Shown here piece after piece: positions 64 to 18,861 of a stretch of 21,845 bases of DNA (position 1 is the stretch's first letter; each line of letters starts with the position of its first letter). The stretch is from a virus. The stretch covers positions 1 through 21,845 of IMG/VR virus record IMGVR_UViG_3300005617_000110; one strand, 5' to 3'. The position numbers were made by a program, and so were the translations under genes. The notes under the pieces are model-generated. The model was given only the letters and a program-made list of their open reading frames with translations, searched no databases and was not told where the DNA came from.

Positions 64-296
64 TGGGCCTTTTGGATAAGGCGAAATCGTCTTATCATCC
101 TCGTGGAAGGAAATCTCGGCACGCGGATGAAGATCTTCAAGAGCTTTGCCTAGCTTGGCTACGGGGCGAGATAACCTCTCTGCAAGCTGCTGATGCCTTG
201 GGGGTAAGAACTGCTTTGGCCGCTCGTTCAACAATGCAAAGCTGGGTCGCGACGTCTATACGCCGAGGGAAATTGAAGGTTGAGGTAGTGAAATGA
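60..296 (+). CDS. Small hypothetical protein, possible helix-turn-helix
   Basis: This is a 78-residue basic protein. I chose ATG 60 because it forms an ATGA overlap with the upstream stop; an in-frame GTG at 51 would add three residues. The middle section (ITSLQAADALGV) resembles the first helices of a helix-turn-helix, followed by a Trp-containing basic stretch, so DNA binding is possible but unproven. Its base composition is AT-richer than the glycosyltransferase genes downstream. It ends in ATGA at 293-296, coupling it to the next gene. It could be a small phage regulator or an unrelated accessory gene. Confidence 0.6.
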   Translation: MMGLLDKAKSSYHPRGRKSRHADEDLQELCLAWLRGEITSLQAADALGVRTALAARSTMQSWVATSIRRGKLKVEVVK

Positions 297-1749: not shown

Positions 1750-1991
1750 CCACCGTAGAGAAGGCGAACTTCGACCAAGAGCGCGAGCTTGTGAAGTACT
1801 GGCGCGATAAGCACTATGCCAACCTGCAGGTGATTCACGATCTGGAGCATCCTAGGGAAAGGCCTTCTCGCGGTAAGGTGATAATCCAAACCACTCGAAC
1901 GGCTACTCAATTAACTGCGATCGGACGGCTGGACTCTGTGTACTCAAAGCTAATTGACATATATGAAAACATGCCGCGTAGGGATTATTAG
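1746..1991 (+). CDS. Small hypothetical protein
   Basis: This is an 81-residue protein starting with GTG inside the GTGA overlap with the upstream stop. The first half is strongly charged and probably helical (EKANFDQERELVKYWRDKHY), and the second half carries a Thr/Arg-rich stretch. The 3' two thirds of the gene are noticeably more AT-rich than the flanking transferase genes, which suggests a separate origin. I do not recognise a family. Placement between two transferases does not by itself imply a role in glycosylation. Confidence 0.6.
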   Translation: MTTVEKANFDQERELVKYWRDKHYANLQVIHDLEHPRERPSRGKVIIQTTRTATQLTAIGRLDSVYSKLIDIYENMPRRDY

Positions 1992-1994
1992 GAG
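1990..1994 (+). promoter_or_regulatory. Ribosome binding site supporting a TTG start
   Basis: AGGAG lies seven bases before TTG 2001. This decides the start of the downstream glycosyltransferase-like gene, which has no ATG near its N-terminus and is one of the few operon members not overlapping its predecessor. Confidence 0.7.
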
Positions 1995-2000
1995 ATCAAT

Positions 2001-2795
2001 TTGAAGCGAATCCTCATAACCTTCGGCGGTAGTGCTTACGAAGCCACAGTCGGCGCCACCGTCGAAGATCACAAGCGCTTCGGCGCGGATGCCTGCTATG
2101 TCTACGACGACGTTTGGCTTCGGGCGCATCCGTTCTACGAGCTAAACCGCTGGCTGTTTGAGCTGCCGGGAGTCCGCGGGCTTTGCTGGTTCGCATGGAA
2201 ACCTCTGATCATCATGGACGCGCTGGAGCGCTTCGCCGCTGATGGCGATGTGGTGCTGTTCATCGACGGCGACACGCACCCGATAGCGGATATGTCGCCG
2301 CTGTTCGACCGATGCGTGGCTGATGGGGGGCAGATGCTGTTCGCGGCGCAGGGGTGCAGCAATCGGCAGTGGGTGAAAAGCGAATGCTTCGAGGTGATGG
2401 CCGCTGAAAGGATAGTTCCTGGACGCAGGCATGTAGTCATCGACTCGCAGGCTGGAGTTGCTAGATTTATGCTTTTTCAGAAAGGGCATTGGCACGTTAA
2501 ACAGTTCCTTGCGGAGTGGTTAACATACTGCCTGAACCCAACGGCTACCACGTTCGACTTGCCGAACGGAATGATGGATGAGCATCCCGGCTTCGAGCAG
2601 CACCGCACCGAGCAGGCGATCATGACGCTGCTGGCACATAAGTACGGCTTCAAGCTGTACCGCGAAGCCGACCATTTTGGGGATGATGAACTCGCCAAGT
2701 TCGGGACAGACTCATGGTACGGAACCATTTTCGAGCAAATCTATGGGGCTGGTCCGCGAAACAACGAGGGGAGCCGTTACCGTAATGTCGGCTAA
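2001..2795 (+). CDS. Glycosyltransferase-like protein with FIDGDTHP motif
   Basis: This 264-residue protein starts at TTG with a good AGGAG seven bases upstream. It shows a transferase-type layout: an N-terminal Rossmann-like strand ([10 protein letters not shown]), a FAWKP segment (residues 64-68) and the putative metal-binding DGD at 89-91 in [12 protein letters not shown]. The second half has [13 protein letters not shown] and [17 protein letters not shown], which I recall from a phage-associated transferase family often found beside the protein type encoded just upstream. No export signal is present. Its 3' end overlaps the start of an HNH-type gene by 11 bases. Donor and acceptor are unknown. 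Confidence 0.7.
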
Positions 2796-3285
2796 AAGAA
2801 TAGACATGAGAGGCCAGAGATTTGCGTCTCTGGTGGTCGTTGATCCGCTTCGCATAACCAGCAAATGGATGTGCGTATGTGATTGCGGTAATACGCACGA
2901 AGCGTTTCGCCATAATTTGCTAAAGGGCCAGACAAAGGCTTGTAGTCAGTGCTCCATTAAACACGGGGGAAAGCACACGGCTGAATATCGCATTTGGTGC
3001 GGAATGAAAAACCGTTGCCTGAACCCAAACAACACTTCCTATGCTAGATATGGAGGGCGCGGTATTACCGTCTGTGAAAGATGGGTTGACTCGTTCACCA
3101 ATTTTAGGGCCGACATGGGATCGCGCCCAGAAGGCATGACGATTGAACGCATCGACAACGATGGGCCATATTCACCAGAGAACTGCGAATGGGCTTCGCT
3201 GAAAGCGCAGGCCAATAACCGTCGCGAACGAAAAGTATTCCCTCCACGAGATAGCGAAGGCAAGTACTCAAAGGCGGTAGCGTAA
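2785..3285 (+). CDS. Free-standing HNH-type endonuclease
   Basis: This is a 166-residue protein. The longer open frame extends back into the upstream gene, but ATG 2785 with GAGGGGAG upstream gives the expected family N-terminus. Cysteines 30, 32, 34, 53 and 56 form a probable zinc-binding module. The core reads [17 protein letters not shown], then [12 protein letters not shown] and finally [17 protein letters not shown], the signature of a widespread phage HNH-like family whose members are taken to cut DNA and promote their own spread. The C-terminus is basic. The gene is more AT-rich than its neighbours and sits between two tailoring genes without breaking the operon, consistent with invasion by a homing gene. 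Activity and target are not shown. Confidence 0.78.
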
Positions 3286-4007
3286 TGGCGATCTACCAAA
3301 GCAATCTCCGCGCCCCTGATCTCAGGCCGTATTTTCGCCTGCTCGACCCGCCGATGCAGCACTGCGGCTACGATGCGCCGAGCGATCCAGACTTCGACCC
3401 GCGCTGTACCTATTGGACGATGGACGAGGCGGCGATCTTGTACAACGTGGCGAAGTCCGTACCCGCTGGCACGTGGGTTGACATCGGCGCGCGGCTCGGA
3501 TGGACGGCGGCGCATTTGGCGGAAGCGGGACAGGAAGTCTATGCGGTAGATCCCGAGTTGGAATCCAATGACTTCTGCGACAGGTTTGATCGCAACACAG
3601 AGGCGTGGGGAATACGGATATACCCATTGGCTGACACCAGGGAAGGGTTCTTGAAGAGACCCTCCATTGTCGGCCTGAGCGCTCCATTCGACGGTTTTGT
3701 CATCGACGGCAACCACGACTCGCCAGAGCCGCTGAACGATGCGAAGGGCGCACTGGCACACGCGAAGCCGGACTGCATCATCATGTTCCACGACACGCTT
3801 GGCACTGCCGTGCGCGACGGCGTGCGGTACCTGATGGATCAGGGATGGCGCTGCCGGATGTACTGGACGCCGAACGGGGTAGCGTGCTGCTGGCGTGGGC
3901 ATGGGGGCTGGATGCCGCCAGATCATGTGCCGGACCCGAAGATGGATTTCGCGCCGCATAAAGCGCTGATGGTGGACATGCAGGATTACTGGGAGAGATG
4001 CGAATGA
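3285..4007 (+). CDS. Class I SAM-dependent methyltransferase
   Basis: This 240-residue protein has a Rossmann-type methyltransferase core. Motif I is VDIGARLGW (residues 65-73), binding S-adenosylmethionine, and the acidic residue ending strand beta 2 is D89 in YAVDPE. VIDGNHD (139-145) and IMFHDT (166-171) match the DG-x-H and HD motifs of the methyltransferase 24 and cephalosporin-hydroxylase-like group, often found in sugar and cell-surface loci. It begins at ATG in a TAATG overlap with the HNH-type gene and ends in ATGA. Its neighbours suggest a sugar or glycan hydroxyl as substrate, but this is inferred from context only. Confidence 0.8.
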   Translation: MAIYQSNLRAPDLRPYFRLLDPPMQHCGYDAPSDPDFDPRCTYWTMDEAAILYNVAKSVPAGTWVDIGARLGWTAAHLAEAGQEVYAVDPELESNDFCDRFDRNTEAWGIRIYPLADTREGFLKRPSIVGLSAPFDGFVIDGNHDSPEPLNDAKGALAHAKPDCIIMFHDTLGTAVRDGVRYLMDQGWRCRMYWTPNGVACCWRGHGGWMPPDHVPDPKMDFAPHKALMVDMQDYWERCE

Positions 4008-4249
4008 GCAAGGTGGGACATTTCGACATTTGCAAAGTGATGGCTGCTGAGAATCTGGATATCCAGATTGCTCCGCTTGAGAACGTGACCAATCTACGCA
4101 AGGTGAAGGCCGGAACGCAGGTGACGATAGGCGTCGGCGGTGACGTGGTGGCGGCGATTGGCCTAGAAAACAAATACGTCGGCGGATTGCTGCTGTGCAA
4201 CCGCGAGCAGTATTTCGCGATTAAGGAAAGGCTTGAGGCACAGAAATGA
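4004..4249 (+). CDS. Small hypothetical protein
   Basis: This is an 81-residue protein. ATG 4004 is chosen because it overlaps the upstream stop as ATGA; ATG 3998 two codons earlier is also possible. The sequence alternates short beta-like strands (QVTIGVGGDVVAAIGL) with a C-terminal charged helix (REQYFAIKERLEAQK), suggesting a small compact alpha/beta domain. I recognise no family or catalytic motif. It sits between two methyltransferase genes and is coupled to the second by ATGA at 4246-4249. Confidence 0.65.
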   Translation: MSKVGHFDICKVMAAENLDIQIAPLENVTNLRKVKAGTQVTIGVGGDVVAAIGLENKYVGGLLLCNREQYFAIKERLEAQK

Positions 4250-4863
4250 GCCATTCTCAGAACGGCGAGGATTCGATCATCGCGGCGTGCTTCCCGCCAG
4301 ACTACAAAGGGACGCTGCTCGAAATCGGCGCATGGCTCCCCGAAGAGTTCAGCAACTCGAAGCTATTCATTGATCGCGGATGGGACGCCACTCTGGTGGA
4401 GTTCTCGCCCCTCGCAGTGGACCGCCAGATCAAAGCGCACGGCTACAACGAGCGGGTGAAGATCATCGCGGCGGCTGTCACTGCTGAGCCGGGGCACGTT
4501 ACACGCTTCCACGTGACGGAAGATGCGCTGTCAACGGATAGCGAGGCGCAGGTTGCCGGATGGAAGGATCTGCGCCCTGGCTATCACGGCGGATTCTACG
4601 GTCACCTGTGGGTGCCGACAATCAGCATTGGGGCGCTGCTATCGCAGTTCTTCGGCAATACGCCGCTTGACTTCGCGTCCATCGACACCGAGGGCAGTTC
4701 CACAGAAATCTGCATTGCGCTGATGCGGACGGACCATCGCCCCAAGGTGATCTGCGTAGAGTACAACGGGCGGGCAGTCGAGATCATGCAGGTTGCGCGG
4801 CCGCTGGGGTACGTGATCGTGGAGCAGAATCAGGAAAACCTGATTTTACGGAGGGTAAATTGA
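4246..4863 (+). CDS. FkbM family methyltransferase
   Basis: This 205-residue protein matches the FkbM group of SAM-dependent O-methyltransferases, which methylate hydroxyls of sugars and polyketides. Hallmarks in order are SQNGEDSII (residues 4-12), LLEIGAW (24-30) as motif I, VEFSP (51-55), and SIDTEGSS (145-152) where FkbM proteins carry a conserved D-x-E-G. It is shorter than many family members and looks like the core domain only. It is probably cytoplasmic. It starts within ATGA and ends at TGA overlapping a TTG start. In this cassette it plausibly methylates a sugar placed by the transferases. Confidence 0.85.
   Translation: MSHSQNGEDSIIAACFPPDYKGTLLEIGAWLPEEFSNSKLFIDRGWDATLVEFSPLAVDRQIKAHGYNERVKIIAAAVTAEPGHVTRFHVTEDALSTDSEAQVAGWKDLRPGYHGGFYGHLWVPTISIGALLSQFFGNTPLDFASIDTEGSSTEICIALMRTDHRPKVICVEYNGRAVEIMQVARPLGYVIVEQNQENLILRRVN
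4850..4854 (+). promoter_or_regulatory. Ribosome binding site supporting a TTG start
   Basis: GGAGG lies five bases before TTG 4860, inside the last codons of the FkbM gene. It supports the non-ATG start of the 98-residue protein that follows. Confidence 0.7.
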
Positions 4864-5156
4864 TCAGATTTTGGATTTCGTGGTGGCAGCCGGGAGAAGA
4901 TTACAGGCCGCTGACTTTCCCCCCGAATAACCACATTTTGGGATGGTGGAGAAGCGGAGAGCGCGGGGAAGGCGAGTCGAGCCTTTGCGCGGCCGTAAGC
5001 GCCAAGGACGAAGACGCGGCAAAGCGCTACGTTCTGAAAGATTGGCCCGAGGCAACGGACTGGCGATTCTGCAACGTCGTGGCGAGCGATTATGTTCCGG
5101 GCGATAGGTTCCCGTTATCAGACTGGATGAAGCCTCGATTTGGAGTCAAGACATGA
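4860..5156 (+). CDS. Small hypothetical phage protein, Trp-rich
   Basis: This is a 98-residue protein starting at TTG in a TTGA overlap, with GGAGG five bases upstream. It is rich in Trp and Pro: FWISWWQPGEDYRPLTFPP, then ILGWWRSG, a SLCAAVSA segment and a KDWPEATDWRF segment. I have seen this pattern in hypothetical proteins of phages and prophages but know of no assigned function. It has no membrane helix or catalytic motif. It ends in ATGA, coupling it to the dehydrogenase gene. Whether it belongs to the glycan cassette or is a general phage gene is unclear. Confidence 0.7.
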   Translation: MIRFWISWWQPGEDYRPLTFPPNNHILGWWRSGERGEGESSLCAAVSAKDEDAAKRYVLKDWPEATDWRFCNVVASDYVPGDRFPLSDWMKPRFGVKT

Positions 5157-5860
5157 AGCTCAAGGGCAAGCGGGCCATCGTAACGGGAGCCTCGCGCGGT
5201 CTGGGCGCGAAGATCGCGGAAGTCTTCGAGCGGGAAGGCGCGGAGGTGTTCAAGCCAACGCGGGAAGAATACGATATGTCGTGGGAGGATTCGCCAGATA
5301 GAATCCTGCGTAACGCTTGGAATGGGATAGCGCCTGAAATCATCGTAAATAACGCCGCGCAAATTGGTCCGATCGGTCCCGCTGATGAAACTTACTATCT
5401 CGACTGGGAAGAATGCCTAAAGGTAAACCTCATCTATCCCGCTGAAATCTGCCGCCTAGCAGTTGGGATGATGAAGCGCGAGAAAGCGCAAGGCTCCATA
5501 ATCAACATCAGCGGCGGTGGGGCCACATCGCCGCGTCCCAACTATTCGGCCTATGCCACGGCCAAATGCGGCTTAGTGCGATTCTCCGAGACACTCGCGG
5601 CTGAAGTGGAGCAGTACGGCATCCGCGTGAACTGCGTGGCACCGGGCCTGCTGAACACGCGCATGGGCAGTCCCGATGGCGACCCACCTGATAGGGCGGC
5701 TGAGCTTGTTGCGTGGCTCGCCAGCGACGATAGCAGGCCGATTACGGGGCGGCTGATCAGTGCGAAGTGGGATGCGTGGGATCAGCCGGGATTTGCTGAA
5801 TATCTTTCCAAGGAGGGCGCGCGCGACATGTACAAGCTCAGGAGGATTCAACCCGAATGA
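5153..5860 (+). CDS. Short-chain dehydrogenase/reductase (SDR)
   Basis: This 235-residue NAD(P)-dependent oxidoreductase is of the classical SDR type. The cofactor-binding glycine motif is TGASRGLG (residues 11-18), NNAA lies at 66-69, the structural Asn of the tetrad is N92, the likely catalytic Ser is S120, and Tyr/Lys form YATAK (134-138). NCVAPG follows, as expected for the nicotinamide-binding loop. The C-terminal part after about residue 190 diverges from common family members. In a cassette with a Gfo/Idh/MocA enzyme and sugar transferases, oxidation or reduction of a sugar or sugar nucleotide is the simplest role. The substrate cannot be told. Confidence 0.87.
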   Translation: MKLKGKRAIVTGASRGLGAKIAEVFEREGAEVFKPTREEYDMSWEDSPDRILRNAWNGIAPEIIVNNAAQIGPIGPADETYYLDWEECLKVNLIYPAEICRLAVGMMKREKAQGSIINISGGGATSPRPNYSAYATAKCGLVRFSETLAAEVEQYGIRVNCVAPGLLNTRMGSPDGDPPDRAAELVAWLASDDSRPITGRLISAKWDAWDQPGFAEYLSKEGARDMYKLRRIQPE

Positions 5861-6813
5861 ACGTTGCCATCATCGGCTGCGGCAAGATCGGACAGCGGCG
5901 GGCGAAAGCGCTGCGGGCGGAAGATCGCATACTGTGGTGTTGCGATTCTGACGCGCAGTTGCTGAATGCCGTTCGAGCTTATGACTTCGCCACCGACTGG
6001 CGAGATGTTGTTGCTGATCTCGATGTCGAAGCCGTCATCATCGCCACCACGCCGGATGTCGCGCCAGAGATTGCGATGGCGGCGATCTGCCAAAACAAGC
6101 ATGTACTCCTCGAAAAGCCAGCAGCGCATTTTGCATCTCAGCTTGACCTTCTGAAATTGTCCGGGACGTGCGTGCGTGTCGGCTTCAACCACCGTTACCA
6201 CCGCGCCATCGTGAAGGCTCGCGAACTGTTCGACGCTGGCGCTATTGGCGACCTGATGTACATTCGCGGGCGATACGGCCACGGCGGGCGTCTGGGCTAC
6301 GAGAAGGAATGGCGGGCCGATCCGAAGATTTCAGGCGGCGGCGTGCTGATCGACATGGGCGTGCATCTGATCGACTTGGCGCAGTGGTTCACGGGCTGCG
6401 AGATGTGCGCGGAAGAGTGTTTCACAAGAACGTACTTCTACGACCAGCAGGTGGAAGATAACGCATTCATCCACCTTCAGAGCAGGCACGGAATTTTAGC
6501 TAGTCTGCACGTCTCCAACACCGAATGGAAGAACCTGTTCAGCTTCGAGATCTTCGGCGAGCGCGGCAAACTGGAAATCAACGGGCTGGGCGGAAGCTAC
6601 GGCGTGGAATCCTGCACACTGTATGCGATGTCTCCAGAGATGGGGCCGCCCGCAACAACGAAGTGGGAATACCCGATGGCGGATGATAGCTGGGAGCGCG
6701 AATGGCTGGAGTTCTGCGAGGATATCCGGCTGAAGCGGACGCCAGTTCCGGGGATTCGCGAAGCTCAGGAGGCATTGCGGATTGTTGAGGCGGTTTACGA
6801 GGCGAACAGATGA
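5857..6813 (+). CDS. Gfo/Idh/MocA family oxidoreductase
   Basis: This 318-residue protein has the two-domain plan of the Gfo/Idh/MocA family, which oxidises or reduces sugars, inositols and sugar nucleotides with NAD(P). The N-terminal Rossmann motif is GCGKIG (residues 7-12). The conserved EKP is at 86-88, followed by VGFNHRYH (108-115). The C-terminal domain holds the signature GGGVLIDMGVHLIDL (160-174), with D166 and H170 in the usual catalytic positions. The length is normal, so the enzyme should be intact. It starts and ends in ATGA overlaps. Together with the adjacent SDR it could build a modified sugar donor for the glycosyltransferases. Confidence 0.9.
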   Translation: MNVAIIGCGKIGQRRAKALRAEDRILWCCDSDAQLLNAVRAYDFATDWRDVVADLDVEAVIIATTPDVAPEIAMAAICQNKHVLLEKPAAHFASQLDLLKLSGTCVRVGFNHRYHRAIVKARELFDAGAIGDLMYIRGRYGHGGRLGYEKEWRADPKISGGGVLIDMGVHLIDLAQWFTGCEMCAEECFTRTYFYDQQVEDNAFIHLQSRHGILASLHVSNTEWKNLFSFEIFGERGKLEINGLGGSYGVESCTLYAMSPEMGPPATTKWEYPMADDSWEREWLEFCEDIRLKRTPVPGIREAQEALRIVEAVYEANR

Positions 6814-6998
6814 GCGGTCGAAATGTGATCGGCTGGATATTCATCGCGGCGGGCGTGGCGTTCATATCTGCTGCCCGATGGAAGACGCGCCATCTGGTCG
6901 AATGGGATTCACTGATGGCAATGTGGTATCCCTACCTGATCGGCGCTTTAATGCTGTGGGCTGGCTACATGATGTCTACTGAAAGGCGGACGAAATGA
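6810..6998 (+). CDS. Small two-helix membrane protein
   Basis: This 62-residue protein has two hydrophobic segments, roughly residues 6-22 (IGWIFIAAGVAFISAA) and 39-55 (MWYPYLIGALMLWAGYM), separated by a short charged loop and followed by a basic tail. A hairpin in the inner membrane is expected. It overlaps both neighbours through ATGA. It might anchor cassette enzymes at the membrane or modify the host envelope. Holins can also look like this, but holins are not normally found inside a sugar cassette. Confidence 0.65.
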   Translation: MSGRNVIGWIFIAAGVAFISAARWKTRHLVEWDSLMAMWYPYLIGALMLWAGYMMSTERRTK

Positions 6999-7861
6999 GC
7001 CGCATCGTCGCCATTCTCCCAGTCCGTAATGAGGGCTGGATTCTCGGCTGCAGCCTGCGAGCGCTGATGCGATGGGTGGATTCGGTTGTGGTGCTGAACC
7101 ACGCCAGCACAGACAACACCGGAGCCATCCTAGACGCGCTGGTGATCGAATACGGGCCAGGAAGAGTGACCGTCATGGAGGATAACGATCCCACCTGGCG
7201 CGAGATGTCCCAGAGGCAAAAGCTGCTCGATGCCGCTCGCTTCCTTGATGCCTCGCACGTGGTAATTGTGGATGCCGATGAGATCCTGACGGCAAATTTC
7301 CTCCCGATCATCCGCGCGATGGTCGAACGCACGCCGCATGGGCAGGTTCTTCAGCTTCCATGGCTCCAACTGCGCGGCAGCATCAACCAAGTGCATACGA
7401 CGGGCCTGTGGGGGCAGCAGAATGCATCGGTGGCCTTCCCTGACATGCCGGAATACTGCTGGAAGGCTCAGAACGGCTACGATCATCACCACAGGCACCC
7501 GATGGGGCGATCGCACATCCCGTATATGCCGATGGGAATGGCCCGAACTGGTGGCATCATGCACTGCCAGATGGTTAGTGATCAGCGATTGCGGTGGAAG
7601 CAGTTTCTGTACAAGCTGATCGAACGGCTGCGGTGGCCGAATAAGCGGACGCCTGCGCAGTTGAACGTAATGTACGACCCGACCGTGAATGCAGTTGACC
7701 GGATGGCTCCTACGCCTGCTGAATGGTGGGCGGGTTACGAATCGCTGCTGCAATACCTGAATGTCGATGCGGAGCCGTGGCAGAAGGCGGAAGCGCTGCG
7801 GATCATGCGGGAGAATCCGGGGATTGAAGCGGGGCTGACGGATTACGGGGTGCTGGGATGA
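6995..7861 (+). CDS. Family 2 glycosyltransferase
   Basis: This 288-residue protein starts with the typical family 2 sequence IVAILPVRNEGWIL, followed by VDSVVVLNHASTDNT, the nucleotide-binding half of a GT-A domain. The metal-binding DxD is IVDADE (D93 and D95). The C-terminal half, after about residue 120, is rich in His, Trp and Met (for example YDHHHRHPMGRSHIPYMPMG) and probably forms the acceptor side. No membrane helices are visible. It is the fourth transferase-like gene in this operon and the clearest one. It is linked by ATGA overlaps to the membrane protein upstream and to a hypothetical gene downstream. Confidence 0.88.
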   Translation: MSRIVAILPVRNEGWILGCSLRALMRWVDSVVVLNHASTDNTGAILDALVIEYGPGRVTVMEDNDPTWREMSQRQKLLDAARFLDASHVVIVDADEILTANFLPIIRAMVERTPHGQVLQLPWLQLRGSINQVHTTGLWGQQNASVAFPDMPEYCWKAQNGYDHHHRHPMGRSHIPYMPMGMARTGGIMHCQMVSDQRLRWKQFLYKLIERLRWPNKRTPAQLNVMYDPTVNAVDRMAPTPAEWWAGYESLLQYLNVDAEPWQKAEALRIMRENPGIEAGLTDYGVLG

Positions 7862-8571: not shown

Positions 8572-10533
8572 ATGCGCCAACGCCTTCGCGGCTTGCTTCT
8601 CAAATTCTACCGGCATCTCACGCCGAAGCCTAACCCCGATCCCGATCTGCGCCGCCAGAATCAGTGGCTGCAGGAACAACTAGTCGCACTGCTGCAACAG
8701 GATCAGATGCGCGATGCCATGGACAGCTACGTCTCCATGGTGGGAGAGCTTGCCGAAGCAAAACAGATGGCCGGCGCGGGGCCGTGGAGTGCGGGGCCTG
8801 CTGCGCTGGCGACTACCGAAGCGATCATCAAGGACGCGCGTGAGCACTTTAAAGTGCGCGAGTCAATCGACGGCGCGATAGGCGCAACGGGCGACATCAA
8901 CCTAATGCTCGCCAACATCGGCTGGCGCAGGGAAACGGCGCTCTCGTGGCTGGAGTTCTCGCGTTGGGGCATTCAGCAGATTATCCTGATTTGCCGCCTC
9001 TACTACATCAAGAACCCCATCGTTCGCAGGCTGATCGACGTGTGCGCGGCGTACGTGTTTGCCCGCGGCGTGGAAGTCACGACCTCAGACGAAACCGCGA
9101 ATGAGGTGCTAAAAGACTTTTTCGAGCGGAACAAGAAAGTCTTCGGGCAGATTGCGTTGGTGGAAAGCGAGAAAGCGAAGGACTACGACGGCAACCTGTT
9201 CTGGTGTTTCTTCAGTGACCGCGAAAACAAGGGGCTGGTGGATGCGCGGCGAATTGATGCGACCGAGATTCAGCAGATTGTGACCGACCCCGAGGATTCG
9301 GATACGCCATGGTATTACCAGCGCATCTGGACGCAGAAAACATTCGACCCACAGCGCGGCGAAGTAGGCGAAACCACGCAATCATGCTGGTATCCGGCGC
9401 TCGGATTCGACCCGCCAGAGAAGCCTGCGGAATTCAACAAGTCACCTGTGATGTGGGATTATCCCGTCTACCATCGCAAGTGCGGCTACGTCGGCAAGTG
9501 GCTATTCGGATGCCCGCGCAACTACCCAATGATCGACTGGGCGAAAGAGGCAAAGCACATTCTCACGGCGTGCGCCTCACTGAAGCAAACCTTGATGCAG
9601 ATCGGCCTGAAGTGGACCACCAAGGGCGGCCAGCAGGCTATTGAGGGCATCAAACAACAGATGCAGACGACTGTCGGGCCGCAGACGCCGATCTGGGATA
9701 CGAACCCGCCAGCGGTAAGCGGCGCTTCGGTCGTAACCGGACCCGGCACGCAAGTTGAAGCCTTCAACATGACAGGCGCGGGTGGCAATCCTGATGATGT
9801 GCGGCAATATAAGCTCATGTGCGCGATGGTGGCGGGCGTTCCCGAAACGTTCCTTGCAGACGTCAGCACGGGCAATCTGGCGACGGCCACCAGCCTTGAC
9901 CGACCGACCGAAACGATTTTCTTGGAGAAGCAGGAAGCGTGGCGCGAGGATCTGGTGGTGATCGCGAAATACGTGCTGGAGGTTTCAGCCGGCGCACCGA
10001 GCGGCAGACTGCGAGAGTCAATGCGAAGCGGATGGACGGAGATTCGCGAATGCAGGCGCAAGCGAGGGCCACGCGGCGAAGTCGTCTACGAGGCGATGGA
10101 GCCGAGCGATGAAGAGATTGAGATCCAGGTCAACTTCCCTGCGATCCGAGAAGGCGATCTGAAGGATCTGGTTGCGGCGACCGTCGAATCCATCACGCTC
10201 AACAACAAGGGCGGCCAAGCGGTCGGCATTGACCTAAAAGCTGGCGTGATTAAACTGTTCGACCTGCTGGGAATCGAAGACGGGCAGGAGCTATCGGAGA
10301 AGATGTTTCCCGAGGGGAAATACAAGATCGACCGATCCGAGCAGGAGATTGCCGCGCCGATTATGCCCACACAGAAGCTACCCGGTGGTGAGCCTCTGAT
10401 TGATCCGAAGACTGGCGAAGAATCCCCGCATCCAGTGGCCAAGGAATCGGCGCGAGACATCGCAGGTAGACCGACGCGCAGGATTGCAGAGGCTTTGAGG
10501 CGGGTTCATGAGGCGACGGCGCAAACCGAATGA
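8572..10533 (+). CDS. Phage portal protein
   Basis: This is a 653-residue protein of the size and layout of siphovirus portals, which form the 12-fold DNA entry ring at one capsid vertex. Recognisable parts include an N-terminal helical region (about 1-110), SWLEFSRWG and YYIKNPIVRRLIDVCAAYVF at the start of the core, and the well-conserved region VPETFLADVSTGNLATATSLDRPTE around residues 425-450. The C-terminal 60 residues are polar and probably disordered. The only plausible early start is ATG 8572, which lies next to a hairpin. The next gene overlaps by ATGA. The terminase that should dock on it is not in this window. Confidence 0.9.
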   Translation: MRQRLRGLLLKFYRHLTPKPNPDPDLRRQNQWLQEQLVALLQQDQMRDAMDSYVSMVGELAEAKQMAGAGPWSAGPAALATTEAIIKDAREHFKVRESIDGAIGATGDINLMLANIGWRRETALSWLEFSRWGIQQIILICRLYYIKNPIVRRLIDVCAAYVFARGVEVTTSDETANEVLKDFFERNKKVFGQIALVESEKAKDYDGNLFWCFFSDRENKGLVDARRIDATEIQQIVTDPEDSDTPWYYQRIWTQKTFDPQRGEVGETTQSCWYPALGFDPPEKPAEFNKSPVMWDYPVYHRKCGYVGKWLFGCPRNYPMIDWAKEAKHILTACASLKQTLMQIGLKWTTKGGQQAIEGIKQQMQTTVGPQTPIWDTNPPAVSGASVVTGPGTQVEAFNMTGAGGNPDDVRQYKLMCAMVAGVPETFLADVSTGNLATATSLDRPTETIFLEKQEAWREDLVVIAKYVLEVSAGAPSGRLRESMRSGWTEIRECRRKRGPRGEVVYEAMEPSDEEIEIQVNFPAIREGDLKDLVAATVESITLNNKGGQAVGIDLKAGVIKLFDLLGIEDGQELSEKMFPEGKYKIDRSEQEIAAPIMPTQKLPGGEPLIDPKTGEESPHPVAKESARDIAGRPTRRIAEALRRVHEATAQTE

Positions 10534-11091: not shown

Positions 11092-11297
11092 TGATGCAGG
11101 CTTACGATGCCGAAGATGCGGTAGGGTGCTGCCGTCGAATCGCAGAAGCCATGCGCAAGGGGCAGTTGGATGATGCGGAGCGCTGGGAGTGCCCAAAATG
11201 CGGACTGGAGTGGCGACCGTCCAGCGAGCATGGAATTCGATTCTGGCGCGCGCGACCAGAGGTTACGCTACTTTCGCATCGCAAGCGCAATCTGTGA
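11088..11297 (+). CDS. Small zinc-ribbon protein
   Basis: This 69-residue protein starts at the first of three consecutive ATG codons (11088), which overlaps the upstream stop as ATGA. CPKCGLEW (C35 and C38) plus further Cys and His (C14, C15, H48) suggest a zinc ribbon or treble clef. It is probably a small nucleic-acid or protein binding factor; no defined role is known to me. Its 3' end converges with, and overlaps by 30 bases, the minus-strand gp10-like gene. Confidence 0.6.
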   Translation: MMMQAYDAEDAVGCCRRIAEAMRKGQLDDAERWECPKCGLEWRPSSEHGIRFWRARPEVTLLSHRKRNL

Positions 11298-11690
11298 TGC
11301 GAACAGTTCGCGGATTGTTTCGCGGGTGGTGTCAAGAGCGGGTCGCAGGTAAGGTTGAGCGGGCATTCCCGGCCACGTGGGGCTATAGGGTCCCGCGCCT
11401 GCACCCGCCGATGCGGCTCCCGCGCGTCCCGTCCCGTACTCGACATATGCCGCGTGGTTTGCGGAAAATCCCACATCGGCGACGATCGTTTTATCCGTCT
11501 CGCGCACAGTAGTATAGCCGCTATCGCGCAATTCCCCAGTGTCAACAGGGACAATGCGTTTGGCCTCTTCCAGCACTGCCTTACCAGCAGCTTCGCAGGC
11601 CGCGCGGACTGCTGGAGCGATTCGGGCGGCGATGAACTGGCCGGCTGAACCTCGCGGCGTGGCGGTTGCGGTTGCTCGAATGATCGGCAT
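11268..11690 (-). CDS. HK97 gp10-like tail completion protein
   Basis: This 140-residue protein on the minus strand clearly belongs to the HK97 gp10 family, which acts at the head-tail junction or in tail completion. Hallmarks in order are EEAKRIVPVDTGELRDSGYTT, then FSANHAAYVEYGTG, then GMPAQPYLRPALD. The plus-strand frames in this stretch have no such features and are shadows. Family members usually sit between head-closure and tail-terminator genes on the same strand as the rest of the late operon. Here the gene is about 7.5 kb upstream of that site and reversed. No clear promoter or Shine-Dalgarno is visible upstream of its start at 11690. Confidence 0.85.
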   Translation of the reverse strand: MPIIRATATATPRGSAGQFIAARIAPAVRAACEAAGKAVLEEAKRIVPVDTGELRDSGYTTVRETDKTIVADVGFSANHAAYVEYGTGRAGAASAGAGAGPYSPTWPGMPAQPYLRPALDTTRETIRELFASQIALAMRK

Positions 11691-11713: not shown

Positions 11714-12001
11714 ATGCAACTGCTCAGTTTCAACATCGTAGGCACGGGCGCCGCTCTCGCGCTTGCGGATGGCGCGACCGGCGTTCCCAAAAAGTGCAAA
11801 TGGTTTCAGGTTTTGAACGTTGACGGGGCGGCTTTCACATTGGGCGGATCGACTGTCGATGCTACTCACGGATACCCGATCGGGACGACAGTGGCCAACT
11901 TTCAGCCTCCCATAGCCTTGGGCTTCGACTTCTATGATCTGGAGTCGATCTTCTTTTTCCTGACGACCTCGGCAAACGCGGTGCTGCTATGCGCTATCTG
12001 A
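11714..12001 (+). CDS. Small phage structural-type protein
   Basis: This 95-residue protein appears to be mostly beta strand and hydrophobic: FNIVGTGAALALADG, WFQVLNVDGAAFTLGG, then IALGFDFYDLESIFFFLTT. The pattern resembles small hypothetical virion-associated proteins that phages place near fibre or decoration genes, but I cannot assign a named family. It is divergent from the gp10-like gene with only 23 bases between the start codons. It overlaps the next gene by 13 bases. No signal peptide is present, unlike the three genes that follow. Confidence 0.65.
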   Translation: MQLLSFNIVGTGAALALADGATGVPKKCKWFQVLNVDGAAFTLGGSTVDATHGYPIGTTVANFQPPIALGFDFYDLESIFFFLTTSANAVLLCAI

Positions 12002-12792
12002 TCGCGCTGTCCCTATTTGCGGTTGTGATCTTCGCGCAACCGATCAATGCCCAGCCAGTAAATCCGCCGTCTGCGATGTTGCGAGGCAACCCGCCTGGCG
12101 GCGAAGGCGGCTCATGTACGGGATCGCGGCGGATCGGATATCTCGACAGTAGCGGTTGGATGTACACTTGCGTGAGCGGCCAGTGGACTCGGTACGGCGG
12201 CGGTGGGGGATCAGGCGTAGTTACCGTGACCACAGGCACCGGCAACCCATCGGCAAACTGCACCGCTCCATCTACATCGAATTTGGCAACCTACGTGGAT
12301 ACGGACACGCAGGATCAATGGTGGTGCTCGGCTACGAACACTTGGAAGAAAGTTCTATCCGTAACCGGAAGCGGGCCGTACGTCGTCACGGGAGCAACGG
12401 GCACGGTGCCATCCACGCCGGCATCCGGCAATGTAACCTGCTATTTCGATTCTACGGCGAACACGCAAATCTGTCTGGATTCCAGCGGAAACCCGTACAC
12501 GATGGTACGCAAGTGGAGCGGCACGGCCACACTTGGCACTTCGGCGATCACCGCCAATGCCTGCGCCTCCACTGTGACGGTAACAGCGACTGGCGCACTC
12601 TCGACTGATTCGATGACTTGGACGCCGAACGCCAATATCAGCGGTGTTACGGGATATGGGGCAGGCTCCGCAGATGGTCTGAAAATCTACCCGTGGATCA
12701 GTGCCGATGCCGTCAACTTCGCGGTCTGCAATGGAACGGGCAGCAGCATCACTCCCGGTGCGGCCACTCTCAACTGGACGATAGTTCGATGA
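11989..12792 (+). CDS. Secreted or virion cysteine-module protein
   Basis: This is a 267-residue protein. Residues 1-21 form a signal peptide (basic start, hydrophobic core IALSLFAVVIFA, likely cleavage at INA|Q). Three imperfect modules follow, each with two cysteines and a YxDS/W pattern: about 43-70, 87-122 and 149-174. A Gly-rich linker lies near residues 70-76. The C-terminal 90 residues, ending TLNWTIVR, form a beta-rich domain similar to ones I recall at the ends of phage fibre-like proteins from soil metagenomes. A tail adhesin or an exported protein are both possible; the signal peptide argues for passage through the host membrane. It overlaps the next gene by ATGA. Confidence 0.7.
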   Translation: MRYLIALSLFAVVIFAQPINAQPVNPPSAMLRGNPPGGEGGSCTGSRRIGYLDSSGWMYTCVSGQWTRYGGGGGSGVVTVTTGTGNPSANCTAPSTSNLATYVDTDTQDQWWCSATNTWKKVLSVTGSGPYVVTGATGTVPSTPASGNVTCYFDSTANTQICLDSSGNPYTMVRKWSGTATLGTSAITANACASTVTVTATGALSTDSMTWTPNANISGVTGYGAGSADGLKIYPWISADAVNFAVCNGTGSSITPGAATLNWTIVR

Positions 12793-13520
12793 AACTAGCA
12801 CTCCTACTCCTAGCTGCATTCTCTGCCGGCGCGCAGGTAATGCCATTCCCCGGTCCTGGGCTACCTGTTTCGGGAGGCGGTGGCGGCGGAACAATCACGC
12901 TGATCTCTCATATCCTCGGTCCTGCTGGTGGGGGGACTTCATCGGCAATCGTTTCCACGGGATCAACGGAATGTTTTGTCTGGAAAAGTGGGGCAGGATC
13001 TGGCGGCGGGTCGGCTCCGACGGATAGCAAGAGCAACACGTACGTTCTTGCATTCTGGGATAGCGGCAGAACAAGCTTGTGGTATGCCAACGCGTCCACT
13101 GGATCTTTCGCGGTAGGATCGGGCCACACATTCACCGGGCCTGGTGGCGAGTTTAATGCGTGGGGCGCGGCGTGCTTCAGTAATACTCTTACGACTGGCA
13201 ACCTCGATCCTGGGGCGACGGCGGGAAGCAGTTCAGGAATTACTACCGTTTCCCCGACTGCAGGAGCTGGGCCTTACGACCCAGGAAGCGGGCAGCATAT
13301 CATTTTCGTCGTATTGAGTTCCAACACGACCAGCGGCACGTGGTCTGGCGTAACTCCGGGGTTCACAATTCTTGATCAGGCTGATTTTTCGGGAGGCGTG
13401 AATTACGAGGGGGCTTTCGCTTATCTCGTCCAGGCATCTGGTACCTCGATCACTCCCACCGCCACCTTCAGCACTGCGGGAGACTTGATCGGCCTGACGT
13501 CTTCATTCAAAGGCCAATAG
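12789..13520 (+). CDS. Secreted or virion Gly/Ser-rich beta protein
   Basis: This is a 243-residue protein. The open frame extends further upstream, but ATG 12789 forms an ATGA overlap and gives a signal peptide (MKLALLLLAAFSAGA|Q). The mature part is rich in Gly, Ser and Thr and depleted in charged residues. It has repeated beta-like stretches such as SKSNTYVLAFWDS, TSLWYANASTGSFAVGSGHTFTG and GQHIIFVVLSSNT. I have seen similar patterns in phage tail-associated proteins without a defined role. Like its neighbours it may be an adhesin reaching the cell surface. No catalytic motif is visible. Confidence 0.65.
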   Translation: MKLALLLLAAFSAGAQVMPFPGPGLPVSGGGGGGTITLISHILGPAGGGTSSAIVSTGSTECFVWKSGAGSGGGSAPTDSKSNTYVLAFWDSGRTSLWYANASTGSFAVGSGHTFTGPGGEFNAWGAACFSNTLTTGNLDPGATAGSSSGITTVSPTAGAGPYDPGSGQHIIFVVLSSNTTSGTWSGVTPGFTILDQADFSGGVNYEGAFAYLVQASGTSITPTATFSTAGDLIGLTSSFKGQ

Positions 13521-13523
13521 GTC

Positions 13524-14198
13524 ATGAGACAATTATTGCTATTCCTAATCGCCGCGCCGCTGCTGGCAGCACAGATCCGCGTCAATGCTGGTGGCGGCGT
13601 GTCCGGTGCATACGGGGCCGATCAATATTTCACGGGCGGCGCGGCATATACGGCAACGGTTGCCGTTCCAGCGGGCCTCCCAGACTATCTGAAGACTTCG
13701 CGAGCGGGCAATTTCTCCTATCGCTTCCCCGTGTCTGATGGCTCCTACACTGTGGTGTTGCACTTCGTGGAGAACTCCAGCGCGATCACAGCGGCGGGAC
13801 AGCGCTCATTCTCGGTGGCAATCAACGGGACGAGCGTTATTCCATCGCTGGATTTGTTCGCGGTAGCGGGCATAAACGTGGAGGTCGTGAAGACATTCCC
13901 GGCGACGGCTGCGGGCAATGGGATATCAATCGCATTCACCACCATCGTCCGCAACGCCGTAGTCAGCGCAATCGAAGTGCTGCCCGTTTCCACTTCGCCC
14001 GTGGTGGGTTTCCGACCGACGCAAGGATTAGGCGGGACATTCAAGGTTTCCGCATCTGCAATCGCTTGTTATGTCAATGGGATCAGGCAGTATCAGGGAA
14101 CAGATTACGCTTACGATGGGACCACCGTTACGCCAGTTGCTGGGACGCTGATGGCGGATGCTGCTGGTGCTTTAATTTGCGATTACACGCCAAAGTGA
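13524..14198 (+). CDS. Secreted malectin-domain protein
   Basis: This is a 224-residue protein. Residues 1-16 are a signal peptide, with likely cleavage at LAA|Q. Residues 17-154 match a malectin domain, a beta-sandwich carbohydrate binder: IRVNAGG near the start, then GADQYFTGG, SRAGNFSYRFPVSDGSYTVVLHFVE, FSVAINGTSVIPSLDLFAVAG and AIEVLP at the end. The last 65 residues (YVNGIRQYQGTDYAYDG) resemble a domain common in phage fibre-type proteins. A glycan-binding adhesin, either on the virion or at the host surface, is the most likely role. Three bases separate it from the upstream gene and only a weak ribosome binding site is seen. Confidence 0.78.
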   Translation: MRQLLLFLIAAPLLAAQIRVNAGGGVSGAYGADQYFTGGAAYTATVAVPAGLPDYLKTSRAGNFSYRFPVSDGSYTVVLHFVENSSAITAAGQRSFSVAINGTSVIPSLDLFAVAGINVEVVKTFPATAAGNGISIAFTTIVRNAVVSAIEVLPVSTSPVVGFRPTQGLGGTFKVSASAIACYVNGIRQYQGTDYAYDGTTVTPVAGTLMADAAGALICDYTPK

Positions 14199-14205
14199 GG
14201 GTGCC

Positions 14206-14493
14206 ATGCGCAGGATTCCGAAGGTCTGCATTGATCGGTTAGCCGAAGAGTGCCGGCTAGAGGAAAAAGAAGAGGCCACCCGAATCAATGAGCGATTCTG
14301 GAAAAGATTCAAATGGTCGATGTATAAGTATTACCAGCCACCAGACGAGCGCAGCATGGTGGGTACGTCCGCGCAGGCGTGGGACGAATACGCCGATATT
14401 TACGGATTTGATGGGTTCAGGAGTCTTTACAGTTGTTCTCAAAAGTCGGTAGCGGGCGATCCCATATCCACTTCGCCACCGCCTGCCCGCTGA
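14206..14493 (+). CDS. Small hypothetical protein
   Basis: This is a 95-residue protein with GAGGG shortly before ATG 14206. The first 40 residues are highly charged and helical (ECRLEEKEEATRINERFWKRFKW), followed by an aromatic stretch (YADIYGFDGFRSLY). The last 25 residues are Ser/Pro-rich and are encoded where the gene overlaps the end of a minus-strand gene by 77 bases, so they may be accidental read-through. No family is recognised. It closes the run of plus-strand genes following the portal. Confidence 0.5.
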   Translation: MRRIPKVCIDRLAEECRLEEKEEATRINERFWKRFKWSMYKYYQPPDERSMVGTSAQAWDEYADIYGFDGFRSLYSCSQKSVAGDPISTSPPPAR

Positions 14494-14695
14494 ACTGAGC
14501 CATCGGCATTCGCATCAGCGTCCCGCACACATCCTGCCGGAAAGCCGCTACGCCGCGCGCGAAAGCTCTCGACTGAAGCATCTCTTCCTGCGTCTGCCGC
14601 CACGTGCGCTGATATTCCGCTTTGTGGAACTTGCACCAGTGGTGTTCTGAGGCGGATTCGGAGTCGCATCCGCCTTTCCAATCACATGTAGCCAT
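14417..14695 (-). CDS. Small zinc-finger phage protein
   Basis: This is a 92-residue protein on the minus strand. The frame extends further upstream, but ATG at 14695 gives a family-like start, MATCDWKGGCD. C4, C10, H18 or H19, C21 and H24 form a probable zinc finger, followed by a helical region (KAEYQRTWRQTQEEMLQSRAFARG). I recall proteins of this build from phage genomes, without an assigned function. It lies tail-to-tail with a plus-strand hypothetical gene and divergent from the protease gene, in which its upstream frame has no meaning. No strong Shine-Dalgarno is visible. Confidence 0.55.
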   Translation of the reverse strand: MATCDWKGGCDSESASEHHWCKFHKAEYQRTWRQTQEEMLQSRAFARGVAAFRQDVCGTLMRMPMAQFSGQAVAKWIWDRPLPTFENNCKDS

Positions 14696-14768
14696 ATCGG
14701 CTAGTCTACTGTACAAATTAGCCCATATGTTGTGGGGCATATGCACGGTCGCGTACCATCCGCGCTGT

Positions 14769-16034
14769 ATGGTTCTCAAGAACGGCTATATGGCGCTGGC
14801 GTTAAAACTCCAGGAAGCCGTCACCAAATCACCCGAAAAGTTCAAGGAAAAGCTGGAAGCGGCGCTGGCCGCCGAGACGGAAGACGGGCCGTGGAAAGCG
14901 TTTCTCGAAGCGGGAGCACGCCACTCAGCCTCGGACATGGGCCATCTGCAAGCGATTCACGACGCCTCGATGGTGTTGGGCGCTTCTTGCGGTGGCGGCA
15001 TGGAAGAGTCTGCTAAGCCGGAATCCTCTGGCGTCAGGCTCGTTGAATCGGCGGCGACCCTCGAACCCATCGTGATTCGTGAAGCTCGGGCAGACTATGA
15101 GATCAAGCTCATCGCACCCGGAAAGGGCAGCAGCGCATTCTATCCCGCCGAAGTGCTGAAGCGCGACGGGCCGAAGGTCTTCAAGGCCAACACCCATGTC
15201 TACGTCAACCATCCGACGATGGCGGAAGAGGCGCAGCGTCCCGAGGGCGACGTAAAGAACCTTGCTGGCGTGCTGACCACCGATGCCGTTTATCACGAGT
15301 CGCACCCGAAGGGCGAAGGACTCTACGCGCGAATGAAGGTCTTTGCCGACCATGGCCAGATGGTCGAAGAGAAGGCCGCACACGTAGGCATGAGCATTCG
15401 CGCTTCGGGCATCGCGGAAGCGAGCCGGAAGCATGAAGGACTACCCGTTCTCAAGGAATTGACCCGCGCCGAATCGGTCGATGTTGTGACCAGAGCGGGC
15501 GCGGGAGGCATGATTTTGACCGAATCGGAAGGCGTCAAGAAACTTTACGAGGCGCTTTCTGTCGCTCCATTAACCCCAACACAGGAGGCCGGAATGACGG
15601 CTGAAGAGACTCAACGTTTAATCGAGGCAGCCGTAGCGCCGTTTAAGGCTCGCGCCATTCAGGGCGATGCACGAGGCGAAGCTACCCGGCTGCTGGAAAC
15701 TATCACACTGCCGCAGGTGGCAAAGAATCGCATCATCGAGCGGGCCATCGCGAATCCGGCGACCACCGCAACTGGCGAACTCGATCTCGACAAACTGCGC
15801 GAATGCGTCGTAGCCGAATCGAAGGCGGAAGGCGAATATCTGGCGGCCATCACTGGCGGCTCCCGCATTCAGGGAATGGGCATCAGCGCTCCTGCTGCCC
15901 CGCCGAAGGCCGAAGACATCGCCACCCGTGAAGCCCGCGAGCAGCGCGAGTTTGCCGATGAGGTGAGCATCTATGAATCTCTCGGCATGTCGAAGCGCGG
16001 TGCGGAATTCGCCGCGAAAGGACGGGCCGCGTAA
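14769..16034 (+). CDS. Capsid maturation protease with C-terminal scaffold
   Basis: This is about 421 residues from ATG 14769 (ATG 14790 is an alternative; upstream in-frame codons run antisense to another gene). Residues about 95-250 look like a prohead protease. ADYEIKLIAPG starts the domain, the likely catalytic His is H148 in YVNHP, the likely Ser is S209 in VGMSIRASG, and SVDVVTRAGAGG closes it. Residues 276-421 are helical and charged, as expected for a scaffold that fills the procapsid. The gene directly precedes the decoration and major capsid genes, the usual order. An internal ribosome binding site would release the scaffold alone. Catalytic assignments are by analogy. Confidence 0.8.
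   Translation: MVLKNGYMALALKLQEAVTKSPEKFKEKLEAALAAETEDGPWKAFLEAGARHSASDMGHLQAIHDASMVLGASCGGGMEESAKPESSGVRLVESAATLEPIVIREARADYEIKLIAPGKGSSAFYPAEVLKRDGPKVFKANTHVYVNHPTMAEEAQRPEGDVKNLAGVLTTDAVYHESHPKGEGLYARMKVFADHGQMVEEKAAHVGMSIRASGIAEASRKHEGLPVLKELTRAESVDVVTRAGAGGMILTESEGVKKLYEALSVAPLTPTQEAGMTAEETQRLIEAAVAPFKARAIQGDARGEATRLLETITLPQVAKNRIIERAIANPATTATGELDLDKLRECVVAESKAEGEYLAAITGGSRIQGMGISAPAAPPKAEDIATREAREQREFADEVSIYESLGMSKRGAEFAAKGRAA
15583..15588 (+). promoter_or_regulatory. Internal ribosome binding site for nested scaffold
   Basis: AGGAGG lies five bases before an in-frame ATG at 15594, inside the protease gene and precisely at the border between protease and helical domains. It is a stronger site than anything at the start of the full-length gene. 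Confidence 0.6.
15594..16034 (+). CDS. Nested capsid scaffold protein (internal start)
   Basis: In-frame initiation at ATG 15594 would give a 146-residue protein identical to the C-terminus of the protease gene product, starting MTAEETQRLIEAAVAPF. It is predicted to be mainly helical and charged, with segments such as DLDKLRECVVAESKAEGEYL. The arrangement parallels lambda, where Nu3 scaffold is produced from within the C protease gene. The perfect AGGAGG five bases upstream is the direct evidence; production of the protein is inferred. The alternative is that the site is a by-product of Gln-Glu codons. Confidence 0.5.
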   Translation: MTAEETQRLIEAAVAPFKARAIQGDARGEATRLLETITLPQVAKNRIIERAIANPATTATGELDLDKLRECVVAESKAEGEYLAAITGGSRIQGMGISAPAAPPKAEDIATREAREQREFADEVSIYESLGMSKRGAEFAAKGRAA

Positions 16035-17863: not shown

Positions 17864-18289
17864 TTACTTAGGCTGTTTTCGATACGGACCGCGAAGCAAG
17901 CCGGCTGGGATGCCCTTCCGTCTACGCATCCGGTTCGTGGCATCCCTCCTGCACTGCAGGCAGGAGCGAGTTCCGCGGTAAACCATCGTGTTTTCCGGCG
18001 TGAACTCGTGGCCGTAATTGCAATGTGTTTTTTCTCGGTTGCGCTTGCCTGTTTCGCCCCTGCGGATGTTTTCTTTAGCGGTGACTGGTTCAAGGTGGTC
18101 TGGATTGACGCAACAACGAACGCGGCAGAGATGGTCGAGCTGCAAGCCGTCAGGTACCGGCCCGCGAAGGCGAGTATAGATCAATCGGTATGGGCCATAT
18201 CCTCGACACAGCCATCCCATCCAAATCCAGCAACCGGATTCGGTAACCGGGATATAGTTTTCAAGAATAGGTATTCTTTTATTAGCCAT
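17864..18289 (-). CDS. HNH homing endonuclease
   Basis: This 141-residue protein on the minus strand starts at 18289 with GGAGG a few bases upstream. GCWIWMGWLCRGYG (residues 19-32) and the core LQLDHLCRVRCCVNPDHLEP (49-68) give the HNH residues H53, N62 and H65, with C55, C59 or C60 probably binding zinc. A second Cys/His module follows, CNYGHEFTPEN with SCLQCRRD (90-115), and the C-terminus is very basic. These are features of free-standing homing endonucleases of phages. It sits alone, opposite in strand, behind the capsid terminator and before the connector gene. It belongs to a different subfamily than the HNH-type gene at 2785. Confidence 0.88.
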   Translation of the reverse strand: MANKRIPILENYIPVTESGCWIWMGWLCRGYGPYRLIYTRLRGPVPDGLQLDHLCRVRCCVNPDHLEPVTAKENIRRGETGKRNREKTHCNYGHEFTPENTMVYRGTRSCLQCRRDATNRMRRRKGIPAGLLRGPYRKQPK

Positions 18290-18366
18290 GCGCCCTCCTC
18301 AAGGTGCATCGGTCAGGGCCGCGCGATGCTTCAACATTGTAGCGGCTCGTTTCATTTTACCGCCAC

Positions 18367-18373
18367 GGGAGGG
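18367..18373 (+). promoter_or_regulatory. Ribosome binding site for the connector gene
   Basis: GGGAGGG is eight bases before ATG 18382. The 92-base gap between this gene and the divergent HNH gene must also hold any promoter restarting transcription after the capsid terminator, but I could not identify a convincing one. Confidence 0.6.
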
Positions 18374-18381
18374 TATTTCTA

Positions 18382-18861
18382 ATGGCGGCTCAGATCGATT
18401 TCACCTACGATTTTTCGACCAACCTCCGGGTGGCGAACGTGCGCCTGCTGATCTCGGACACGATCAACACGGACGCGCAGCCGGCCATTTTCAGCGATAC
18501 CGAAATCAACGCCTTTTACAACATCCAGCAGGCCACGTTTCAGTCGTCCATGTTCTTCAGCGGCTCAGCGGGCCGCGATCTGCCGTACTCTCCCGTCTCC
18601 ACTCTCCGCGTGGCGGCGCTGGCGCTCGATTCGCTGGCGTCCAATGCTTCCCGGCTATCGGCCATTACCAAGCTGCTCGACGTGTCGCTTTCGCCCAAGG
18701 AGGCGGCGGTATCGCTGCGCGATCAGGCGATGCAGTATCGGACCACCGATGACGAATCGGGCGCTATGGTGCTGTTTGAGCAGGCCACTACCGTCTGGGG
18801 ATTTGCTCAAAGATTTTGGAATCAATACCAGCGGCAGACGGCGGGTGGGGGGCAGTTTTGA
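18382..18861 (+). CDS. Head-tail connector protein (gp6/gp15-like)
   Basis: This 159-residue protein is mainly helical. VRLLISDT and AIFSDTEINAFY near the N-terminus are typical of the adaptor family that docks beneath the portal ring and extends the DNA channel. The middle section (TLRVAALALDSLASNASRLSAITKLLDVSL) matches the helix bundle, with a polar C-terminal tail. Its place as the first gene after the capsid region is the usual one. A good ribosome binding site precedes it. It overlaps the next gene at TTGA. Confidence 0.78.
   Translation: MAAQIDFTYDFSTNLRVANVRLLISDTINTDAQPAIFSDTEINAFYNIQQATFQSSMFFSGSAGRDLPYSPVSTLRVAALALDSLASNASRLSAITKLLDVSLSPKEAAVSLRDQAMQYRTTDDESGAMVLFEQATTVWGFAQRFWNQYQRQTAGGGQF

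Follow-up and report, generated by a model that had tools for sequence, protein, structure and literature searches.

Predicted Sec-exported proteins with glutamine after the signal peptide, encoded among the virion genes of presumed soil phages

The fibers of tailed phages are assumed to be cytoplasmic parts of the virion. Among phage proteins found in the host envelope, T5 Llp and phi80 Cor are small and mask receptors, and Llp is a lipoprotein of the signal peptidase (SPase) II type. In Bacteroidetes, most SPase I substrates expose a glutamine upon cleavage, which is then cyclized; the published mean for this Q-rule is 71% (PMC5837995). Signal-peptide genes that follow the Q-rule have also been described in phages of Porphyromonas gingivalis (proposed Nixviridae), where they led to the inference that the phages are adapted to the secretion system of their host (PMC10367356).

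Here we analyze a viral record of 21.8 kb (the window, meaning the whole stretch of DNA), which contains a sugar-gene block, the portal, an antisense neck gene, a protease, the major capsid protein, and tail genes. A preliminary description of this DNA had pointed out three consecutive genes with signal peptides and a shared Gln after the cleavage site, and had proposed that their products are exported and may act at the host surface. Our analyses compare this locus with its relatives and with the systems above. The phages presumably come from soil, which is our reading of the kind of metagenome behind the record numbers.

Results

Three Signal-Peptide Genes Between Portal and Protease

Three consecutive genes with signal peptides were confirmed, at the positions given in the preliminary description (Table 1). 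Each begins with ATG. The genes are colinear, with a 4-nt overlap (ATGA) between genes 1 and 2 and a start for gene 3 that lies 3 nt past the gene 2 stop, and all three are under purifying selection, with dN/dS values of ∼0.06 to 0.13 (gene 1, 0.06 to 0.07; gene 2, 0.07 over the full gene; gene 3, 0.09 to 0.13).

Table 1. Features of the cassette and its borders in the window (↓, predicted cleavage site)
Feature	Position	Strand	Description
Portal protein	8572..10533	+	PHROG 10963, 4.7e-52; left border of variable interval
HK97-gp10-like neck gene	11268-11690	-	Antisense inside virion block
95-aa gene, left cassette flank	11714..12001	+	Directly upstream of gene 1, 13-nt overlap with it
Gene 1 (SP1)	11989..12792	+	267 aa; signal peptide, three Cys-paired hairpin-like repeats, Gly-rich linkers, C-terminal beta domain
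Gene 1 signal peptide	11989..12051	+	MRYLIALSLFAVVIFA↓QPINA↓Q; two possible cleavage sites, Gln exposed by either
Gene 1 C-terminal beta domain	12517..12789	+	Residues 177-267; 50-54% identity to L116 15554 and L118 12698
Gene 2 (SP2)	12789..13520	+	243 aa; signal peptide, PFPGPG and Gly-rich linker, GSTN-rich beta protein
Gene 2 signal peptide	12789..12833	+	MKLALLLLAAFSAGA↓Q
Gene 3 (SP3)	13524..14198	+	224 aa; signal peptide, malectin domain, C-terminal Cys-bounded module (CYVNGIRQ...CDY)
Gene 3 signal peptide	13524..13571	+	MRQLLLFLIAAPLLAA↓Q
Gene 3 malectin domain	13611..13955	+	Pfam Malectin (PF11721), carbohydrate-binding fold
95-aa gene	14206..14493	+	Directly downstream of gene 3; no family; dN/dS 0.12
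Small Cys-rich gene, right cassette flank	14417..14779	-	Homologs in 23 relatives, always antisense
Head maturation protease	14622..16034	+	Start uncertain; PHROG 15531, 1.4e-32; right border of variable interval

The 95-aa gene upstream of gene 1 has weak homologs in some relatives, and in two of them (L138 and L167) a signal-peptide gene also follows directly. The homolog of the neck gene is in sense orientation in 32 of the related loci and antisense in 18, and seems to flip repeatedly. Upstream of the portal, positions 293-7861 hold genes that by eye are glycosyltransferase-like, methyltransferase-like, short-chain dehydrogenase, and Gfo/Idh-type; this block is mosaic between relatives, with 78-96% identity by segment. 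Two inserts of ∼0.5 kb, at 17866-18396 and 2712-3282, are missing from the close relative G001, the former also from L004. Both hold ORFs that look HNH-like by eye (17864-18289, minus strand, and 2677-3285, plus strand) and are likely homing endonucleases.

Signal Peptides and Cleavage Sites

Signal peptides were scored with a home-made scorer derived from 31 well-known signal peptides of E. coli, 30 of whose 31 cleavage sites it recovered; it was tested on random and shuffled sequence, and random sequence reaches a score of 10 in 0.3% of cases. With this scorer, genes 1, 2, and 3 obtained 12.0, 16.1, and 12.2 and were the top matches in the window when all starts were scanned. Shuffles of their N termini matched the observed score in only 0.14%, 0.02%, and 0.68% of cases, respectively. 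All three have a positive n-region, a hydrophobic core (h-region), and a c-region with small residues at −3/−1. The SPase II lipobox, with its Cys at +1, is absent from genes 1 to 3, which have Gln in this position.

Specifically, gene 1 has two candidate cuts, FA↓Q (residue 16) and INA↓Q (residue 21), and Gln follows either of them; the predicted cut is AGA↓Q in gene 2 and LAA↓Q in gene 3, although for gene 3 the E. coli matrix slightly favors LLA↓AQ. Gln is hence at +1 in 3/3 window genes, allowing LAA↓Q for gene 3. On this point the preliminary description was right, with small ambiguities: two equivalent sites in gene 1 and an uncertainty of one residue in gene 3.

The relative G001 (48 kb, 93% identical) is probably complete, as its ends share an exact terminal repeat of 123 bp. 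Across 52 signal-peptide codons, the window and G001 differ by three synonymous changes and one nonsynonymous change (S8F, with which the core stays hydrophobic), and the changes in signal-peptide codons across the relatives are likewise mostly synonymous. In G001, no strong signal-peptide genes of this kind were seen besides genes 1 to 3 and two spurious calls, one within a membrane protein and one on the strand opposite another gene. No integrase was recognized among the searched proteins of G001. Positions 11792-12529 of its reverse complement strongly match a phage queuine tRNA-ribosyltransferase family (PHROG 1279, 1.9e-64), which hints at deazaguanine modification of DNA or tRNA.

Recurrence Among Portal Relatives

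An alignment search of public viral contigs with the portal gave 80 loci, of which 78 were scanned. Signal-peptide genes recur among these 78, mostly between portal and protease and often as overlapping runs like those of the window, whereas a few lie past the capsid gene or ahead of the portal. A Gln-type signal-peptide gene lies inside 11 of the 53 complete portal-protease intervals, and further ones are present in loci that end short of the protease (L116, L132, L133, and L167). Most relatives have no signal-peptide gene in the interval, so the function of the cassette is dispensable or carried elsewhere. The more distant relatives L015 and L016 (capsid 47% identical) have the same succession of portal, neck, antisense small gene, protease, and capsid, and genes 1 to 3 are absent from them. 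As judged from sequence, genes 1 to 3 are an accessory cassette, placed between the neck/95-aa gene and the head-maturation protease. In distant relatives, three large proteins that look secreted (L162 15634, L180 12472, and L183 15939) are encoded downstream of the capsid gene; Gln follows their likely cut, and their mature starts are similar.

The mature parts of the three window proteins are mutually unrelated. The combination of signal peptide and Gln also appears in nonhomologous genes of distant relatives, and because it recurs in this way, it is more than chance. Among the relatives, 19 of 35 sense matches have Gln at +1 versus 0 of 11 antisense matches, the internal control (Fisher one-sided p = 0.001). 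When the scorer was blind to the residues after the cut and near-duplicates were dropped, Gln was at +1 in 12/22; the p value is 2e-9 with the E. coli rate as reference and 9e-5 with that of the planctomycete.

Glutamine Bias and Candidate Hosts

Applied to Hymenobacter, the same scorer found Gln at +1 in 15/20 cases (75%), in agreement with the published mean, and in a planctomycete it found 4/24 (17%). For plasmids of one strain of Granulicella tundricola, of the Acidobacteriota (L187-L206, L247, and L248), the count was 13/25 (52%). The bias in Granulicella is nearly that of Bacteroidota and may be an undescribed trait of the phylum. Because the Gln bias of the phage group matches the Q-rule and the rates in Hymenobacter and Granulicella, the phages appear adapted to a host that follows the Gln rule. 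From these sequence comparisons, the host is probably a Q-rule bacterium, and the bias measured in the Granulicella plasmids makes Acidobacteriota a candidate. Acidobacteriota are a soil phylum.

The preliminary description had attributed the shared Gln to adaptation to the secretion machinery of one host. This is supported as adaptation to the secretion habit of a host lineage, given the Q-rule itself (PMC5837995), the precedent in phages (PMC10367356), and the acidobacterial bias. The paper on the Q-rule makes no mention of Acidobacteria (PMC5837995).

Searches of bacterial genomes did not find the host. Capsid alignment against bacterial genome contigs returned no relative; in Bacteroidota, there was no capsid relative in 296 genomes and no portal relative in 395. 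The phylum of a Verrucomicrobia MAG (240 genomes) had no portal relative either, and that of another MAG (297 genomes) gave one distant portal match over a short stretch with no signal-peptide gene there. Three bacterial samples could not be told apart by tetranucleotide similarity.

Mature Proteins

Gene 3 is the only one of the three genes with a Malectin match (E 8.5e-14, 52.3 bits versus a Pfam gathering cut-off of 23). Proteins from many bacterial phyla share ∼30-45% identity with its malectin domain, and malectin relatives sit on bacterial glycoside hydrolases. The repeats of gene 1 are short hairpins bounded by cysteines, and the two proteins that share its C-terminal domain (L116 15554 and L118 12698) are both signal-peptide and Gln proteins. 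For this domain, low-confidence and only suggestive fold matches were obtained to small phage beta proteins and tail fibers; the structure models are poor (pLDDT of 53 for gene 1 and 36 for gene 2). A match of gene 1 to EgtA in NCBIfam lay far under the cut-off and was dismissed as chance. No family match was found for gene 2, and defense-system models gave no match. Genes 1 to 3 are also unmatched in 50,697 phage records and have no significant PHROG match, whereas signal-peptide proteins of the relatives match tail-fiber PHROGs.

Conserved cysteines number eight in gene 1 and two each in genes 2 and 3. These even and conserved counts fit with predicted folding in an oxidizing compartment. 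In the group, the Cys content of signal-peptide proteins is 1.74%, versus 1.23% in fiber-like proteins that have no signal peptide (rank test, p = 6e-5). As a motif specific to signal-peptide proteins, Cys-x-[YFW]-Cys-Trp was rejected: it occurs in 6/30 of them but also in 47/879 other ORFs (1/64 fiber-like), and it is informative only as a comparison with fiber-like proteins.

Several of the group's 30 signal-peptide proteins match tail-fiber PHROGs. Four have collagen repeats and one has an S74 fiber chaperone (endosialidase chaperone), and there are single cases of LamG and GH43 (both in L110), CBM5/12, and a GDSL lipase (in L157).

Discussion

At the level of sequence, the genes are real and accessory in location, their signals are strong, the Gln bias is group-wide, and malectin in the window stands beside fiber-like domains in the relatives. 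From this we infer actual export, disulfides, and a glycan target bound at the envelope. Our favored explanation, which we hold with slightly less than even confidence, is that these are Sec-exported, disulfide-stabilized fiber- or lectin-like proteins that would act at the envelope of the infected cell, most likely by masking surface sugars; masking as their purpose is a guess. A predicted long-tailed soil phage would carry the cassette in its virion-gene block, and the host would export the encoded fiber- or lectin-like proteins via Sec and SPase I. Cleavage would expose the Gln favored by the host lineage as the new N terminus. The mature proteins would acquire their fold and their disulfide bonds beyond the cytoplasm and would bind glycans in the envelope or matrix of the infected cell. 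With surface sugars masked or occupied, progeny or rival virions would not be caught there. Sec alone reaches the periplasm; crossing of the outer membrane is a separate step, for which this explanation does not account.

Of the proposal in the preliminary description that the proteins are exported and act at the surface, the part on export gains support as a Sec/SPase I route from the strong signals, purifying selection on them, conserved even cysteines, and recurrence in relatives. Action at the surface is made plausible by malectin and by the fiber- and lectin-like relatives.

Our second choice, which we consider unlikely, is that the proteins are free, exported glycan-binding or -cutting proteins that loosen biofilm or capsule and let progeny escape, as free depolymerases do. 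The GH43 and LamG protein, the GDSL lipase, the CBM5/12 member, and malectin in the window speak for such handling of the matrix, as does the presence of malectin relatives on bacterial glycoside hydrolases. However, few of the 30 signal-peptide proteins have a recognizable enzyme domain, and the three of the window have none.

Given that genes 1 to 3 are surrounded by virion genes, the default guess would be a role in the virion, and the preliminary description had offered joining the virion in an unusual way as its alternative. As our third choice, fibers would be exported, form disulfides, and be added to the outside of virions during lysis or later. The placement of the genes, the tail-fiber PHROG matches, the collagen repeats, and the S74 chaperone in signal-peptide proteins agree with this, but the tail module of G001 has ordinary fiber/lectin genes (BNR/Ig-like and LamG) with no signals, which weakens it, and to our knowledge no tailed phage has been established to attach exported fibers from outside. 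We regard this route as quite improbable. Slightly less probable still is host-derived cargo, that is, captured secreted bacterial proteins kept for the benefit of the infected cell rather than for infection itself. The similarity of malectin to many bacterial phyla and the lack of matches to genes 1 to 3 in the phage records would fit with cargo, but genes 1 and 2 have no recognized bacterial family, and the architectures are fiber-like and mosaic among phages. Finally, that the N termini are hydrophobic virion-attachment segments resembling export signals, as their location among virion genes could suggest, is very improbable given the complete n-, h-, and c-regions, the extra cysteines, and a +1 Gln bias that spans unrelated genes and matches host secretomes.

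If the recurring locus indeed exports fiber- and lectin-like proteins, these phages would be remodeling the surface of the cell that they are killing. For uncultured phages, the Gln signature also gives a hint of the host phylum from sequence alone, and it suggests that Acidobacteriota, too, may follow the Q-rule. In its widest form, the proposal is that a widespread group of soil tailed phages turned tail-fiber-type proteins into Sec-exported, disulfide-bonded envelope fibers with leaders tuned to a Gln-rule phylum, possibly Acidobacteriota, for which such a rule is not on record; this we put forward as a possibility about which we are more doubtful than hopeful.

With phage tail fibers and collagen-like minor tail proteins, the signal-peptide family has in common collagen repeats, the S74 chaperone, Gly-rich stalks, and mosaic modules, but unlike them it has a cleavable export signal (predicted), Gln at +1, more cysteines, and a head-side location. 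With T5 Llp and phi80 Cor, it would share the sending of a phage protein to the host envelope, as predicted here; the window proteins differ in being SPase I-type and fiber/lectin-like, and masking is in their case a guess. Gene 3 has the domain of bacterial malectin-domain proteins (PF11721), above the curated cut-off, yet this phage protein is small, stands alone, and has a C-terminal module of its own, rather than being appended to a hydrolase. The Q-rule substrates of Bacteroidetes (PMC5837995, PMC10653852) likewise combine a Sec signal, an SPase I-type site, and Gln at +1; those are host proteins in which pyroglutamate was measured, whereas the features here are predicted from sequence and the host may belong to the Acidobacteriota instead of the Bacteroidetes. 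The P. gingivalis phages are unrelated prophages of an oral Bacteroidetes species, whereas the present locus recurs in presumed soil phages and encodes fiber- or lectin-like proteins. Q-rule genes in phages were thus already known (PMC10367356), and what appears to be new is a locus that recurs across a large, apparently soil-dwelling phage group, together with the fiber- or lectin-like nature of its predicted exported proteins.
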